From the NCBI GenBank assembly GCA_017432075.1, contig JAFRJV010000083.1, forward strand, positions 1-35,780: a DNA stretch of 35,780 nt, read 5' to 3'. Position 1 is the stretch's first letter. Every line of letters begins with the position of its first letter. Source of the DNA: Mogibacterium sp. GTDB lineage: Bacteria > Bacillota > Clostridia > Peptostreptococcales > Anaerovoracaceae. The position numbers and the translations under genes were made by a program. The notes under the pieces were generated by a model, which was given only the letters and a program-made list of their open reading frames with translations, made no database searches and was not told the DNA's origin. Below are positions 20,871 to 34,499 of the stretch, in pieces.

Positions 20871-22781
20871 ATGAAGAGAAATCTGTATCTGACTACAAGA
20901 CCTGTTGAAGAAGCAAGAGAAATATATATGAAGGCTCTCGGAGATGCTGCGGAGCCTCATGCGGAAACGGTAAGGGTGATAGACGCGCTGGGAAGGATCA
21001 CATCCGAAGCGGTTTACGCCGGATATTCGTCACCGCTTTACAACTCAGCAGCTATGGACGGAATCGCGGTCATCTCATCGAGAACCGCCGGAGCGTCAGA
21101 GGCATCGCCTGTTACGCTGAAAGAAGGAGAGGATTACGTGATAGTCGATACCGGTGATCCTGTCAGGAAGCCATACGACGCCGTCATCATGGCAGAGGAT
21201 ACTCAGGAGACAGAAGGCGGCATGGTGATAAGAGCTGCCGCTCCGGCATGGCAGCATGTAAGGCCTGTCGGTGAAGACATAGTCGAAGGCGAGATGATAC
21301 TCACACGCTGCCACAGGATACGCCCTATAGACATAGGCGTCCTTTTATCAGGCGGTGTTACGGAGATATCCGTATTTGCACGGCCAAAGGTAGGAATAAT
21401 CCCGACGGGGACGGAGATCGTGGAGCCTTATGAGGATCCGGAAGAAGGAGATATCATCGAGTCAAATTCCAGGATGTTCGAAGCAATGGTACGTGAACAG
21501 GGCGGTATCCCGCACAGGTATGACATTGTTCCGGATGACTATGAAATGATAAAGGCAAGCGTGCAGAAAGCTCTCGATGAGAACGACATGGTGATCGTGA
21601 ATGCCGGATCCAGCGCTGGTACTGAGGATTACACGGTCCACGTCCTCAGAGAGATAGGTGAGGTATTTGTGCATGGCGTCGCAATGAAGCCCGGAAAGCC
21701 TGTGATTCTGGCAAAGGCATGCGGAAAGCCTGTCATCGGGATCCCGGGATATCCTGTTTCAGCATATCTTGCGGTAGAGAACTTCGCTTATCCGGTGATC
21801 AGAAAATATACGGGAGCCGTGGACTCTGAAGGCAGGAGCATCAAGGCAGTTCTTTCACGCAGACTGGTATCTTCACTGAAACACAGAGAGTATGTGCGTG
21901 TAAGGGTCGGCCGCGTAGGAGACAGGTATGTCTGTGCTCCGCTCGCAAGAGGTGCGGGTGCTGCCATGAGCATGGTGAGGGCCGACGGATTCTGCGTGAT
22001 ACCTCAGGAAAGGGAGGGATATGAAGCAGGAGAGACCGTAGATGTCACGCTGCTCTGCTCACCTGAAGAGATAGACAGAACAATAGTATGCACCGGAAGC
22101 CACGATATGCTGCTCGATGTGATCTCCGACCTTATGTCGGGGGAAAGCGAGGGCATCAGGCTTTCGAGCACTCATATAGGAAGCCTCGGCGGACTCATGG
22201 CGCTGCAGAGGGGGGAGGCGCATATCACGCCTACGCACCTGCTCGATGAGGAGACCGGAGTATATAATGTGTCATATATACGGCAGCTGTTCCCTGGAGA
22301 AGAGATGGTTCTGGTAAAAGGTGTCGGAAGGATACAGGGGCTGATGGCTGCCCCGGGCAATCCGCTTGGCATAAAAGGTATAGAGGATCTGACTGGAATA
22401 AAATATGTCAACAGGCAGAGAGGAGCCGGCACGCGCGTGCTTCTCGATTACAAACTGAAGCAGGCCGGGATTTCACCTTCAGAAGTAGATGGCTATGATG
22501 CGGAAGCTGCCACTCACATGGCTGTAGCAGCACAGGTCGCAAGCGGCGAGGCAGACTGCGGAATGGGCGTTTACTCTGCAGCGCACGCGATGGGCCTGGA
22601 TTTCATACCTGTGGGTGAGGAGGAGTACGACTTTGCCATGAGACCGGAGACACTTGAGCTTCCGGAAATGCAGAGTTTCCTCAGACTGTTGACGGGCGAT
22701 GAGTTCAGAGCTGAGCTTGACAGACTTGGCGGATACACCACGGAACACACCGGAGAGATCAGATATATTGATCCGGAATAA
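20871..22781 (+). CDS. MoeA second copy fused to a periplasmic-binding-protein-like domain
   Basis: 636 residues. The first about 400 are MoeA (SPLYNSAAMDGIAV, GDPVRKPYDAVIMAEDTQ, PTGTEIVEP, VNAGSSAGTEDYTVHV, AMKPGKPVILA, GIPGYPVSAYLAVE). The remaining about 230 are a PBP-like domain (CTGSHDMLLDVISDLM, STHIGSLGGLMALQRGEAHITPTHLLDEETG, RQRGAGTRVLLDYKL, ASGEADCGMGVYSAA). This MoeA-PBP form occurs in archaea and anaerobes. The extra domain may sense or choose the oxyanion or another ligand; that is inference. It is the last gene of the operon. Confidence 0.93.
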   Translation: MKRNLYLTTRPVEEAREIYMKALGDAAEPHAETVRVIDALGRITSEAVYAGYSSPLYNSAAMDGIAVISSRTAGASEASPVTLKEGEDYVIVDTGDPVRKPYDAVIMAEDTQETEGGMVIRAAAPAWQHVRPVGEDIVEGEMILTRCHRIRPIDIGVLLSGGVTEISVFARPKVGIIPTGTEIVEPYEDPEEGDIIESNSRMFEAMVREQGGIPHRYDIVPDDYEMIKASVQKALDENDMVIVNAGSSAGTEDYTVHVLREIGEVFVHGVAMKPGKPVILAKACGKPVIGIPGYPVSAYLAVENFAYPVIRKYTGAVDSEGRSIKAVLSRRLVSSLKHREYVRVRVGRVGDRYVCAPLARGAGAAMSMVRADGFCVIPQEREGYEAGETVDVTLLCSPEEIDRTIVCTGSHDMLLDVISDLMSGESEGIRLSSTHIGSLGGLMALQRGEAHITPTHLLDEETGVYNVSYIRQLFPGEEMVLVKGVGRIQGLMAAPGNPLGIKGIEDLTGIKYVNRQRGAGTRVLLDYKLKQAGISPSEVDGYDAEAATHMAVAAQVASGEADCGMGVYSAAHAMGLDFIPVGEEEYDFAMRPETLELPEMQSFLRLLTGDEFRAELDRLGGYTTEHTGEIRYIDPE

Positions 22782-27313: not shown

Positions 27314-28897
27314 ATGAAAAATAAAACCAGAAAACAATATCTGCTGGCGGTCCTGGCATTTCTCCTGTTCTATGCCGTTCTGCTGATCCTGCTCGTCATG
27401 AGCGAGAAGGACCAGCCCGGCGCGCATATACACACCATAGGAGATGCGATCTGGTACTCACTGGTCACGATATCTACTGTCGGTTACGGAGATGTCACAC
27501 CTGTATCGCACGCAGGACATATTATAGGGATCATCTTCCTCCTGATGTCAATGGGATTACTGGTCGCGTTATTCGGATCTGTCGTATCGGTACTCACCAG
27601 TGAAGGCTTTCCGATGCTCAGACTGGGATTCAGAAGACGCAGCAACTGGTACTATTTCGCTGAGTTTACTTCAGAGGCCGATGTACTTGCCCGGGATATC
27701 CTCCGCGAGGATCCCGACGGAGTCATTATTTTCGGCATAAACAAGGAAATGGAGATCGAAAAGCCTGACTATCCCTGCTACTTTATCAATGTGTCTCCGG
27801 CAAAAATAGTAGCCCATAAGAAGGGGATAGGGGAAAGGTGCAAGCTGTTCTTCCTCGATGAGAATGACATCGGCGGAAATCTGAAAGCGATGCATGCCCA
27901 TGAACTCGACGCTGACGTATATGCCCGTACAATGAGCGGATCTGAGAAGATGTCGGGCAATATCCATCTGTTCCAGAGTTATGACTGCTGCGCCAGAAGC
28001 TACTGGAGAGAACATCCTCTGCATCATATGGAAGACATGATCGTCATCATCGGTTTCGGACACTACGGGACCGCATTGCTTGAACGCGCGATCCTCATGA
28101 ACATAAACGATTCAGATTTTGATGTATCTTACCATGTGTTCGGTGACAGCAGGAGATTCAGACAGATACACGACAATCTCAGCACTGCGATGGGAATAAA
28201 TGAGAAGCATGAGGGCCATGACAGCATCTTCTTTCATGAAGAAGGCTGGGAGAGCGCTCATGAGATCATAAGACATGCCGACAGGATCATAATATGCGAG
28301 GACGATGTGGAGACCGGTTGGGATATCTACTGGCAGATACAGCGTTTCTATAATAACAAGAACCGTATCCACCTCAGGAGCAACCGCATCACTCCGGGAG
28401 TAAACTATTTCGGCACGAATGAACAGATATTTACCGTAAACCAGATCGTCCGCACAAGGCTCAATGACGCAGCGAGGCTCATGAATGACCTGTACCGCAG
28501 GAGTGTTAAGGAAAGTCTCGACTGGGATGAACTGAACGACAGACTCAAGCAGTCAAAAATCGCTGCAGCCGACCATCTTATCGTTAAAATAAAACTGCTG
28601 CTGGACGGCCGGGAGATAACCGATCTGGACTATGAGACTTTCAAGGCGGCATACGACTCGCTCTGCGAGGCAAAAAAGGATCCTGCAAAGCTGGATATGC
28701 TCCGCAGGATAGAACATGCACGATGGGTGCGCTTTTATGCGTATTACAACTGGAAATACGGTAAAGTAAAGGATCCTTACAAGCGTGAGAACCCGATGAT
28801 ATGTGAGTACGATGACATGACTGAAGCCCAGAAGGCATATCATGACCGCGCGTGGGATCTCATAGGCGAACTTGCAAAACAGCTGAGCAGCAACTGA
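27314..28897 (+). CDS. Two-TM K+ channel with Rossmann and RyR domains
   Basis: 527 residues. Membrane helices at about 10-29 and 70-95 flank a pore loop with the K+ selectivity filter TVGYGD (55-60). The cytoplasmic part has an RCK/TrkA-N-like region, including a nucleotide-binding motif (IIGFGHYGTALLE, near 246). The end (about 466-516) is a RyR domain: EHARWVRFYAYYNWKYG, DPYKRENPMICEYDDM, AQKAYHDRAWDLI. RyR domains in bacteria have been proposed to bind nucleotide-type ligands, so this is likely a ligand-gated K+ efflux channel. GGGAGG precedes the ATG. It converges with trkH, with only 2 bases between stops. Confidence 0.88.
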   Translation: MKNKTRKQYLLAVLAFLLFYAVLLILLVMSEKDQPGAHIHTIGDAIWYSLVTISTVGYGDVTPVSHAGHIIGIIFLLMSMGLLVALFGSVVSVLTSEGFPMLRLGFRRRSNWYYFAEFTSEADVLARDILREDPDGVIIFGINKEMEIEKPDYPCYFINVSPAKIVAHKKGIGERCKLFFLDENDIGGNLKAMHAHELDADVYARTMSGSEKMSGNIHLFQSYDCCARSYWREHPLHHMEDMIVIIGFGHYGTALLERAILMNINDSDFDVSYHVFGDSRRFRQIHDNLSTAMGINEKHEGHDSIFFHEEGWESAHEIIRHADRIIICEDDVETGWDIYWQIQRFYNNKNRIHLRSNRITPGVNYFGTNEQIFTVNQIVRTRLNDAARLMNDLYRRSVKESLDWDELNDRLKQSKIAAADHLIVKIKLLLDGREITDLDYETFKAAYDSLCEAKKDPAKLDMLRRIEHARWVRFYAYYNWKYGKVKDPYKRENPMICEYDDMTEAQKAYHDRAWDLIGELAKQLSSN

Positions 28898-31799: not shown

Positions 31800-34499
31800 A
31801 TGGATACAAAAAAAATCACACTCGGAATACTGGCACATGTGGATGCCGGCAAGACTACCTTGTCGGAGGCTTTGCTGTACCTTACGGGTGAGATCAGAAA
31901 ACCGGGCAGGGTAGACCACGGCGATGCTTTTCTTGACGATGATCCTATTGAGAGAAACAGAGGAATAACCATCTTTTCCAGGCAGGCACGCTTCAGCATA
32001 AAAGGAGCTGAGGGAGCAGATACCGAAGTGACTCTCATAGACACTCCGGGTCATGTCGACTTTGCGGCAGAAATGGAGAGATCGCTTTCCGTGCTGGATT
32101 ACGCTCTTCTGGTAATAAGCGGATCCGAAGGTGTGCAGGCACACACGAAGACGCTGTACCGTCTGCTGAAAGAGAGGAAGATCCCCGTATTTGCTTTTGT
32201 TAACAAGATGGATATAGCCGTAAGGAAAAAAGAAGATATCCTGAAGGAACTTGCGGCAGACCTGAATGCAGGCCTTGTGGATTTCAGCGGTGCTTCGGAG
32301 AGGACCGAGGAATTCACGGATGCCGTGACGCTGTACTCACCGGAGCTTGCAGAGATAGTTCTTGACGGAGAAATGCCTGATGACGGGCATATCGCAGATG
32401 CGGTGCTGAGAGGAGAGATCATCCCGTGCATGTTCGGATCGGCGCTGAAGATGGAGGGCGTCGAAGGTCTTCTTGGTGTATTGGGAAGATATACAAAAGA
32501 GCCTGCATACGGTGAAGAATTCGGTGCAAGAGTATATAAGACGGCGGCCTCTGATGAAGGCGAGAGGCTGAGTTTCATAAAGATCACAGGCGGAGAACTT
32601 AAAGTTAAGGATAAGGTGAAGATAAACAGCGCGTCGGGAGACGAAGGCGGCGAGGAGAAGGTGAACAGGATAATGCTGTTCTCCGGCAGCCGCTGCGTCC
32701 CTGTCGATTCCGCAGCGGCCGGCACGGTCTGCGCCGTGACGGGGCCCGCCCGGGCCCTGCCGGGAGACGGTCTCGGCGCCGAGCCGCCTCTGAGCGGCGC
32801 GTCGATAAAGCCATTCATGGTATACTCGGTGAATGGTCCTGAAGGCATGGACCCTTATCTTCTTATGAAAGATCTGAAGCTGCTTGCAGAGGAAGACCCG
32901 ATGCTCAACGTGTCGAGAAACCCTGACGGCAGCATAGATATCAGGCTTATGGGTCAGGTGCAGCTCGAAGTGCTGCAGACCGTGATAAAAGACAGATTCG
33001 GTTATGATGTCAGCTTCGGCACGGGAAGCGTGCTCTATCTTGAGACCATAGCCGGCAAATATGAAGGGGTGGGGCACTTTGAACCACTCAGGCATTACGC
33101 AGAAGTACACCTCATCGTTGAACCCGGTGAACGCGGCAGTGGTATAGTTATCACCAGCGCTGTTCCCGAAGATGAACTGGCTCTCAACTGGCAGAGGCTC
33201 ATAATGACTCATCTTTATGAGAAGGAACATACCGGTGTGCTGACCGGATCGCCTCTTACTGATGTTCGGATCACTCTGGCAGCGGGAAGAGCTCATGAGA
33301 AGCATACAGTTGGAGGAGATTTCCGCGAGGCCACATACAGGGCTGTCAGGAACGCTCTGATGCAGGCGAGAGCAGACGGCAAAGCATTGCTGCTTGAGCC
33401 GTGGTGCGAGTATGAGATAGAACTTCCGGCACGCAGTGTAGGCCGTGCAATGACGGATATAAGGCAGATGGGCGGAAGCCAGGACACGCTTGAGCAGACT
33501 GAGGACACAGCGAAGATCAAAGGACGCGTGCCTGCATCGGAGATAGCGGGCTACCAGCTCACTTTGAGCGGATATACTTCCGGTGAAGGTAGGCTCTCGT
33601 GCACTCCCGGCGGTTACGACGAATGTCACGATGCGGCATCTGTTATCGAAGAAAAAGGATATGATCCTGAAAGGGACGTTGAAAATCCCGCTGATTCCGT
33701 ATTCGTCAATCACAGCGGAAGCGACATCGTGAAGTGGGACGAGGTAGCTGAACACATGCATATAGGAAGCGTTTTTAAGCGCACGGCGTCATCACCTTCG
33801 TACGGGCGCGTTCCTCAGACGCATACTTCCTCTTCAGAAATCCTGGATGTAAGGGAAGCGGCAAAGAGAAGGATCGCTGCCGAAAAAGAACTGAAAAACA
33901 TATTTGAGCGTACCTACGGCGCCTCAAAAAAGACGCGCTACCGGGAAGCCAGGGAAAAAGACTACAGGCACCGGCCGGAGCTGACTGAAGAAGAGGCTGC
34001 AAGAAATGAAGCCCGCAATCAGGAGATAAAGGCCCGCCGTGAGCACAAGTCGGTAAAGAGCGAAGACAAGCCGCTCATGATACTGATCGACGGATATAAC
34101 ATCATCTTTGCAGACGATTATCTGAAGGACCTTTTTGCCCGCGATGCAGGATCCGCCAGAGACCAGCTTCTGGACAGACTGAGCAACTATGCCGGTTATA
34201 CCGGATTCGAGGTGACGGTAGTCTTCGACGCATACAATGTATCCATGAGCGAAGCCCGTGAGGAGGAGCGTAACGGCGTTAAAGTAGTCTTCACTGCTGA
34301 AAATGAACCTGCAGATATCCGCATGGGTATCATGACTGATGCAGCCAGGGACCGTCAGATATACGTGGTGTCATCAGACAGCCTCGTGCAGCAGGACGCA
34401 TTTACGCATGGCGCGCTCAGGATATCTTCACGGGAATTCCTTTCCGAGCTTTCCAGAGCGGAGCAGGAAATAAGGGATCATCTGAAGCGAGGCGATTGA
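31800..34499 (+). CDS. TetM/EF-G-like ribosomal GTPase fused to YacP/Rae1-type NYN ribonuclease domain
   Basis: 899 residues; ribosome-protection proteins are normally about 640. The GTPase motifs are intact: AHVDAGKTT (12-20), RNRGITIFSR switch (53-61), DTPGH (81-85), NKMD (135-138), GSALK. The EF-G domains II to V follow (VQLEVLQTVIKDRFGYDV, HTVGGDFREATYRAVRNAL, AKIKGRVPASEIAGYQLTL). A charged helical linker (about 690-757) leads to an NYN domain from about 759 with LMILIDGYNIIF, VTVVFDAYNV, NEPADIRMG and VVSSDSLVQQ, the acidic active-site layout of YacP/Rae1. Rae1 of Bacillus cuts mRNA in the ribosomal A site. The fusion suggests GTP-driven entry of a nuclease into ribosomes. Similar fusions are often auto-labelled tetracycline resistance, which is not supported here. 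The ribosome binding site is weak (GAAGAG). Confidence 0.88.
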   Translation: MDTKKITLGILAHVDAGKTTLSEALLYLTGEIRKPGRVDHGDAFLDDDPIERNRGITIFSRQARFSIKGAEGADTEVTLIDTPGHVDFAAEMERSLSVLDYALLVISGSEGVQAHTKTLYRLLKERKIPVFAFVNKMDIAVRKKEDILKELAADLNAGLVDFSGASERTEEFTDAVTLYSPELAEIVLDGEMPDDGHIADAVLRGEIIPCMFGSALKMEGVEGLLGVLGRYTKEPAYGEEFGARVYKTAASDEGERLSFIKITGGELKVKDKVKINSASGDEGGEEKVNRIMLFSGSRCVPVDSAAAGTVCAVTGPARALPGDGLGAEPPLSGASIKPFMVYSVNGPEGMDPYLLMKDLKLLAEEDPMLNVSRNPDGSIDIRLMGQVQLEVLQTVIKDRFGYDVSFGTGSVLYLETIAGKYEGVGHFEPLRHYAEVHLIVEPGERGSGIVITSAVPEDELALNWQRLIMTHLYEKEHTGVLTGSPLTDVRITLAAGRAHEKHTVGGDFREATYRAVRNALMQARADGKALLLEPWCEYEIELPARSVGRAMTDIRQMGGSQDTLEQTEDTAKIKGRVPASEIAGYQLTLSGYTSGEGRLSCTPGGYDECHDAASVIEEKGYDPERDVENPADSVFVNHSGSDIVKWDEVAEHMHIGSVFKRTASSPSYGRVPQTHTSSSEILDVREAAKRRIAAEKELKNIFERTYGASKKTRYREAREKDYRHRPELTEEEAARNEARNQEIKARREHKSVKSEDKPLMILIDGYNIIFADDYLKDLFARDAGSARDQLLDRLSNYAGYTGFEVTVVFDAYNVSMSEAREEERNGVKVVFTAENEPADIRMGIMTDAARDRQIYVVSSDSLVQQDAFTHGALRISSREFLSELSRAEQEIRDHLKRGD

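Follow-up and report, generated by a model that had tools for sequence, protein, structure and literature searches.

The DNA analyzed here, referred to below as the window, is a 35,780-nucleotide (nt) stretch of a Mogibacterium sp. assembly (GCA_017432075.1, contig JAFRJV010000083.1, positions 1 to 35,780), and it carries a gene in which an EF-G-like guanosine triphosphatase (GTPase) is fused to a nuclease domain. The gene, at 31800-34499 on the forward strand, starts with ATG and encodes 899 amino acids uninterrupted by stops. Pfam places along the protein GTP_EFTU (residues 6-232, expectation value (E) 7e-49), the EF-G domains II (242-323), III (338-407; 26.8 bits, marginally below the cut-off of 27), IV (410-523) and V (531-611, E 6e-17), and finally NYN_YacP at 761-897, which aligns to positions 1-140 of the 166 in the profile (126.8 bits, cut-off 24.6; E 1e-36). 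The solved structures nearest to the GTPase part are EF-G, which scores best, and TetO, while those nearest to the NYN part are Bacillus subtilis YacP (5mq8/5mq9, E about 6e-23). These matches lie far beyond chance and confirm the architecture proposed in a preliminary description of this DNA, an intact GTPase of EF-G/TetM shape with a YacP/Rae1-type NYN domain behind it. The features of the gene are given below, with conservation judged over a set of 101 full-length fused proteins from which sequences shorter than 820 amino acids or not covering both ends were left out.

31800-34499, + strand: whole fused gene, 899 amino acids (open reading frame).
31815-32495, + strand: GTPase (G) domain, residues 6-232, with P-loop, switch and DTPGH motifs intact (PF00009; conservation in the 101 fused proteins).
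32523-33020, + strand: EF-G domains II (242-323) and III (338-407) (PF22042, PF14492; III marginally below cut-off).
33027-33368, + strand: EF-G domain IV, residues 410-523 (PF03764).
33300-33326, + strand: KHTVGGDFR at the tip of domain IV (residues 501-509), where Tet proteins have a different loop (alignments).
33390-33632, + strand: EF-G domain V, residues 531-611 (PF00679).
33633-33767, + strand: post-domain-V extension, residues 612-656, conserved, present also in unfused GTPases and not in four Tet proteins (alignments).
33768-34073, + strand: linker, residues 657-758, charged and variable, with EL..IF..TYG conserved at 697-707 (alignment, composition, nonsynonymous divergence (dN)).
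34080-34490, + strand: Rae1-type nuclease domain NYN_YacP (residues 761-897), lacking the tail that free Rae1 has at its C terminus (Pfam, alignments).
34089-34091, + strand: catalytic-site Asp764, equivalent to Rae1 D7 (alignment to solved chain, conservation).
34227-34229, + strand: conserved Asp810, equivalent to Rae1 D53 (same evidence).
34314-34316, + strand: conserved Asp839, equivalent to Rae1 D81 (same evidence).
34377-34379, + strand: conserved Asp860, equivalent to Rae1 D104 (same evidence).

The YacP/Rae1-like acidic motifs of the preliminary description are borne out by this alignment, in which D7, D53, D81 and D104 of the solved B. subtilis chain fall on D764, D810, D839 and D860 of the window protein. 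Equivalents of these four residues are kept in 101, 101, 101 and 100 of the 101 fused proteins, respectively, and at 99-100% in fused and free proteins alike. On the GTPase side, the P-loop lysine K18 is present in 101/101 and the histidine of DTPGH (His85) in 100/101 fused proteins. Judged from these alignments, both active sites are conserved in the fused family. Comparison with L069, a locus encoding an 86% identical protein, gave ratios of nonsynonymous to synonymous divergence (dN/dS) of 0.06 for the GTPase and 0.02 for the NYN region, synonymous sites being almost saturated, and by this measure both halves are under purifying selection; the linker diverges faster than either of them (dN 0.25). 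The preliminary description had also read the region between the two halves as a charged linker. Its charge is real, with K/R/D/E making up 44% of residues 661-758, but residues from about 612 to 656 form a conserved extension instead (S633, F635 and W646 in 100, 101 and 100 of 101 fused proteins), and the linker itself holds the short motif EL..IF..TYG, conserved across the 101 proteins. Of the proposed single-protein machine, the composition is supported: one polypeptide with a ribosome-type GTPase and a Rae1-type nuclease, both with conserved active sites.

The fusion is widespread among clostridial genomes. When GTDB contigs were scanned with an alignment (A1) of the C-terminal part of 26 fused proteins, at least 594 stretches encoding relatives were obtained, which may include free Rae1 and unfused GTPases; in all of the best 80 of these, the top open frame spans the GTPase into the NYN domain, some frames ending at contig edges. 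Among 128 genomes drawn evenly from the class, 85 match PF05991 (NYN_YacP), and open frames divide these into 47 fused and 38 free-standing cases (168-213 amino acids), and a GTPase model (A2) recovers all 47 fused genes. Of 398 genomes drawn evenly across the phylum, 214 match PF05991 and 184 do not, and A2 finds 25 fused genes. A search for the same fusion in other genomes had been proposed with the preliminary description, and it was found in 47/128 and 25/398 genomes in these two draws, fused genes being judged from genome sequence. Two of the 47 differ from the rest: in G518 the NYN match is partial, and in G493 the fusion is interrupted, with the GTPase and NYN parts in separate frames. 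The G493 parts lie at about 126183-127546 of contig C2, the NYN part in a 351-amino-acid frame and the GTPase part in one of 588 amino acids, which reflects either decay or an assembly error.

No free copy of the nuclease was found in the fused genomes. Across both draws together, a second NYN_YacP over the Pfam cut-off was found in 0/65 distinct fused genomes, the sole extra hit (G563, E 5.5e-4) being below cut-off. Free-standing Rae1 is present in 38/81 non-fused class genomes and in 189/373 non-fused phylum genomes, where the latter figure counts every other PF05991 match among the 214 as free-standing, including the weakest, for which no open frames were listed. Fisher tests of the fusion against free Rae1 gave p-values of 6e-10 (class) and 5e-8 (phylum) with kinship ignored. 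Because these p-values disregard relatedness, the four families that hold both states are more telling: f59 (G222 fused; G053 and G091 free), f157 (G471, G496 and G559 fused; G539 free), f158 (G472 fused; G497, G519, G540 and G560 free) and f162, within one genus (G476 and G563 fused; G500 free).

In B. subtilis, rae1 lies in the gene order cysS-mrnC-rlmB-rae1-sigH. The same slot between rlmB and sigH holds rae1 in three of the four free-standing genomes examined (G500, G539 and G053, by tblastn for all three and by Pfam for G500 and G053), while in the fourth, G497, rae1 is not beside rlmB. An intact rae1 between these genes was found in 0/16 fused genomes that keep the synteny, in a tblastn search that used 42 Rae1 queries and a threshold of E 0.01. 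Instead, the slot of G476 holds a relic that is 46% identical to the Rae1 of G500, a member of the same genus, over 98 positions and is broken by six stops, and that of G559 holds a 39-residue C-terminal relic (E 2e-6). Weak rae1 matches are seen in the slots of G542 (E 2e-4) and G522 (E 0.002), and the remaining 12/16 slots, with gaps of 27 to 424 nt, gave no rae1 match. The fused gene itself is not located between rlmB and sigH. In the genome of the window, no free rae1 was found after rlmB, where the frames were read by eye as rpmG, secE and nusG; this assembly is 83% complete, and the lack of free rae1 is judged from the post-rlmB place and from relatives. At the same locus (L233, contig C65), sigH was also unmatched after rlmB, and a search of this entire assembly at E 1e-25 found no sigH either.

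Overall, the fusion excludes and displaces free Rae1, and the census, the synteny and the relics together show that rae1 was lost in genomes that carry the fusion. This exclusion and displacement is the best evidence here that the fused protein does the ribosome-linked job of Rae1. It also bears on the proposal that the protein is a ribosome-assembly or RNA-maturation enzyme, with the GTPase binding to ribosomes or their subunits and the NYN domain acting as a processing enzyme of ribosomal RNA (rRNA) or transfer RNA (tRNA). Such a role would agree with an early suggestion, as cited in PMC4342817, that NYN domains mature rRNA and tRNA, and with the link of LepA, an EF-G-like GTPase, to 30S biogenesis reported in PMC12787274. 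However, the place taken is that of Rae1, which is described in PMC12320835 and PMC10100781 as a translation-dependent nuclease able, on its own, to attack messenger RNA (mRNA) in the ribosomal aminoacyl-tRNA (A) site, and a complete lack of NYN_YacP matches in 184/398 phylum genomes would be unexpected for a maturation step. We therefore consider a maturation role very unlikely.

The nuclease half of the fusion differs from free Rae1 behind its last aspartate. In 39/39 free-standing proteins 61-68 residues follow this position, compared with at most 46 in 57/101 fused proteins. A tail arginine (R165/R166 in B. subtilis, whose YacP chain has WRRG close to the tail end) occurs in 34/39 free but only 4/101 fused proteins, and is missing from the window protein. 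In B. subtilis Rae1, R166P is among the suppressors that the authors of PMC6613710 read as Rae1 loss of function, although it came within a group of suppressor mutations and is not shown alone in the relevant passages of that paper. We infer that the tail of the free enzyme may serve docking or stability, a role that the GTPase part may have taken over; docking via the GTPase would explain why the tail is kept in all free proteins and shortened in over half of the fused ones.

A simpler possibility is that the two halves do separate ribosome-related jobs and were joined only for co-expression or for a higher local concentration of the nuclease, so that Rae1 was replaced with no gating by guanosine triphosphate (GTP). 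The linker is indeed long, charged and variable, and most genomes that have free Rae1 do without the GTPase. Unfused GTPases of the same subfamily are likewise found with free Rae1 in 6/12 genomes and without it in 6/12, a count from which we set aside the diverged G346 (E 1e-60, with no match to NYN), the partial second copy of G382 and six rows (E 1e-36 to 1e-40) covering only model positions 18-194. This count does not support an obligate pairing of GTPase and Rae1 in trans. What a mere convenience would leave unaccounted for is the conservation of the extension and linker motifs across the family, the shortened Rae1 tail, and the lack of a second, free NYN_YacP in any of the 65 fused genomes. 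These three observations suggest instead that the fused form took over docking, and we regard a joining for mere convenience as unlikely, though less so than the other alternatives considered here.

The preliminary description had called the GTPase ribosome-protecting, or TetM-like. This holds for the order of its domains, but the protein is not a ribosome-protection (Tet) protein as judged by its tip loop, by the NCBIfam cut-off or by its placement in a tree. Its similarity to Tet models runs over the whole length, yet the score of 379 bits against NCBIfam tet_protect is far under the cut-off of 775, and the EF-G equivalog model gives 231.7 bits, below its cut-off of 659.4. The domain IV tip of the fused family reads KHTxGGDFR, with K501, H502, T503, D507, F508 and R509 kept in 99, 100, 100, 100, 100 and 99 of 101 proteins. 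The four Tet proteins fetched, including Tet(M), Tet(O) and Tet(W), have YSPVSTPADFR at this position and are missing the post-domain-V extension. By contrast, the extension and an HTxGGD tip are present in 9/9 unfused GTPases compared (open frames of 644-674 amino acids). In a tree of GTPases, the fused and unfused rows stand apart from the four Tet rows (support 93 with all rows; 97, starred, after removal of three long fused rows and one partial EF-G row), although the outgroup forms a long branch and the root is unsure.

Three observations concern individual members of this subfamily. In one divergent fused protein (L065, genome G436) the KHTxGGDFR loop is gone, as is most of the extension, but the nuclease motifs are kept. 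The genome G455 has, besides its fused gene (L047), a 649-amino-acid frame (C16:55154-57064) that is 39% identical to residues 4-661 and is seemingly an unfused GTPase. On a Ligilactobacillus salivarius plasmid (L178:2399-4917), an unfused GTPase gene lies beside rpsN (S14) and a gene annotated 'putative metal homeostasis protein', and transposase genes are close by.

These comparisons bear on whether the fused protein could be an antibiotic resistance factor, one that clears tetracycline or another A-site drug as Tet proteins do, with the ribonuclease (RNase) as an added mechanism. Atkinson 2015 (PMC4342817) filed such proteins as Tet and suggested a possible new resistance mechanism via the RNase, and the EF-G/Tet domain order and the whole-length similarity to Tet models are in line with this suggestion. 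So is the record name of one of two annotated fused genes, 'TetM/TetW/TetO/TetS family tetracycline resistance ribosomal protection protein'. However, the loop through which Tet proteins displace the drug, according to the same paper, is replaced in the fused family, the score remains far under the tet_protect cut-off, and the GTPase groups with unfused GTPases and not with Tet. Moreover, PLSDB predicts no resistance gene for the two plasmid-borne fused copies, unlike the tet(M) and tet(W) controls, which have one, and the gene displaced is rae1 and not a tet gene. Tetracycline resistance as the identity of this protein was thus rejected on tip loop, cut-off and tree, all of which are contrary to it, and a resistance factor as a whole appears very unlikely, although a role towards other drugs is conceivable. 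The expectation that the family is misannotated across genomes as tetracycline resistance was correct for that one record but is not universal, as the other annotated gene is named 'translation factor GTPase family protein'.

The origin of the fusion was approached through trees of both halves. A tree of 101 fused NYN domains (thinned from 130, and not the same 101 as in the conservation set) with 39 free-standing ones places fused and free proteins on the two sides of one branch, with a support of 99 by the Shimodaira-Hasegawa-like approximate likelihood ratio test (SH-aLRT) in a quick search. Fused NYN domains of the GTDB families f1, f14, f59, f157, f162, f176 and f180 lie close together, and this placement across families suggests horizontal spread. 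Among the mobile-element collections, places covering at least 80% of the query comprise 2 plasmid records and 2 phage records; both plasmids with the fused gene, of 252 and 518 kilobases (kb), are typed non-mobilizable. None of the 27 IMG/VR stretches that fitted a pattern was a relative. On these results, with one of the two phage records examined, a phage or mobile origin was rejected. That record (L184; MT835563.1, 5421-8012) holds a full fused gene in a 32-kb scaffold of faecal origin, recorded as 'Bacteriophage sp.' and neither verified nor annotated.

EF-G and Tet factors bind on the A-site side of the ribosome and place domain IV at the decoding centre. Against this background, we propose that the fused protein probably takes the place of Rae1 and relies on a dedicated translation GTPase for docking to ribosomes. 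A GTPase subfamily of its own, EF-G/Tet-shaped, would have acquired the Rae1-type NYN nuclease, in the simplest case a single time, and free-standing rae1 would have been lost where the fusion took hold, with the direction of replacement, like the horizontal spread, being the probable course of events. Ribosome docking, GTP gating and A-site cleavage are predicted features of this model, and the recognition of drug-bound ribosomes and the entry by GTP hydrolysis named in the preliminary description are conjectural. In its GTP form the protein would bind ribosomes with an accessible A site, domain IV would probe the decoding centre, and after hydrolysis or a domain movement the GTPase would move or leave, allowing the tethered nuclease to enter and cut the A-site mRNA. 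We favour such a sequential GTPase-then-nuclease step because domain IV and the NYN domain can hardly share the A site. The truncated message could then pass to exonucleases and to transfer-messenger RNA (tmRNA) with SmpB, and tmRNA-SmpB could clear the ribosome; SmpB is present in nine of ten fused genomes checked, including that of the window, and was not found in G522. A more specific version, to which we give slightly less than even weight, is that GTP binding and hydrolysis gate the cut of the tethered Rae1 on a paused ribosome, with the KHTxGGDFR loop and the extension reading the state of the A site. This would amount to a one-protein, GTP-controlled form of no-go decay that replaced the free nuclease in these Clostridia.

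Several considerations weigh against a gated replacement of Rae1. Neither half needs the other, since unfused GTPases occur equally with and without free Rae1 and most genomes with free Rae1 are without the GTPase, and the job is dispensable, given the many phylum genomes without any NYN_YacP match. Both draws hold related genomes, so the Fisher p-values overstate independence, and in one set of fused genomes 21/30 loci have no rlmB match nearby and are uninformative about the slot. The full GTPase tree needs 3 changes for the fused label; when the three long fused rows and the partial EF-G row are removed, 1 change suffices (support 87, not starred), and a single fusion event on the GTPase side is therefore compatible with the tree but unproven by it. 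Domain IV and the NYN domain would be expected to compete for the A site. Finally, the case as a whole is built from sequence comparison.

The surroundings of the fused gene are shared by few of the loci compared. Its neighbours are trkA, on the opposite strand, and a cyclophilin-type gene, an arrangement common to at most three loci, window included. No conserved operon partner was found among 80 loci, some of them short: no neighbour cluster exceeded four loci apart from one of six, which we discounted as a reverse-frame shadow of the fused gene itself. An Rfam scan of the window at gathering threshold gave no match to RNA elements, and PADLOC gave no defence-system match. Elsewhere in the window, 27314-28897 (+ strand) encodes a 527-amino-acid ion-channel-like protein beside trkH and trkA, both on the other strand; its residues 467-511 match the RyR domain weakly (22.2 bits, below the cut-off of 27.4). 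In addition, 20871-22781 (+ strand) encodes a single 636-amino-acid protein with MoeA domains followed by a PBP_like domain.

The joining of a GTPase class that normally visits the A site to a Rae1 nuclease whose free gene is gone or decayed makes recognition and cleavage testable within one protein, and offers a handle on what Rae1 recognises. It also matters for counts of resistance genes, as a gene of many clostridial genomes is sometimes named for tetracycline resistance without having the Tet tip loop.

The architecture itself is not new. Atkinson 2015 (BMC Genomics, PMC4342817) reports that in ten species of Clostridiales, Tet proteins carry an NYN domain similar to YacP, and these proteins almost certainly belong to the same family; our literature search, which did not cover Leroy 2017, Condon 2018 on Rae1 distribution or Deves 2023, found the fusion described only there. 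While the architecture is the same, the proteins are filed as Tet in that paper, whereas here the GTPase is set apart from Tet and the fusion displaces free Rae1. New in this work are the census, the exclusion, the displacement at the rlmB-sigH slot, the distinction of the GTPase from Tet, and the finding that the nuclease acids are kept while the tail is often lost. The activity of Rae1 was reportedly published only after the Atkinson study, by Leroy in 2017.

Among the other known systems, Tet(M), Tet(O) and Tet(W) share domains G and II-V in the same order and are about 29-31% identical (L182, L183), but have the YSPVSTPADFR tip, no extension and no nuclease. EF-G has the same domain order as well; the window protein is under its equivalog cut-off, and its tip loop is unlike that of the EF-G-like row L068. 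The unfused GTPases of Ligilactobacillus salivarius (L178), Paenibacillus cellulosilyticus (L179) and Subdoligranulum variabile (L181), at about 42-43% identity, share the tip, the extension and the side of the tree, and differ in that their chain ends past the extension and the nuclease is missing. On the nuclease side, Rae1/YacP of B. subtilis (5mq8, 5mq9) has the same NYN domain and the same four acids, but is a free protein of 170 amino acids, encoded after rlmB and ending in a C-terminal tail, whereas in the window protein the NYN domain is the C-terminal domain of a GTPase and its tail is shortened.

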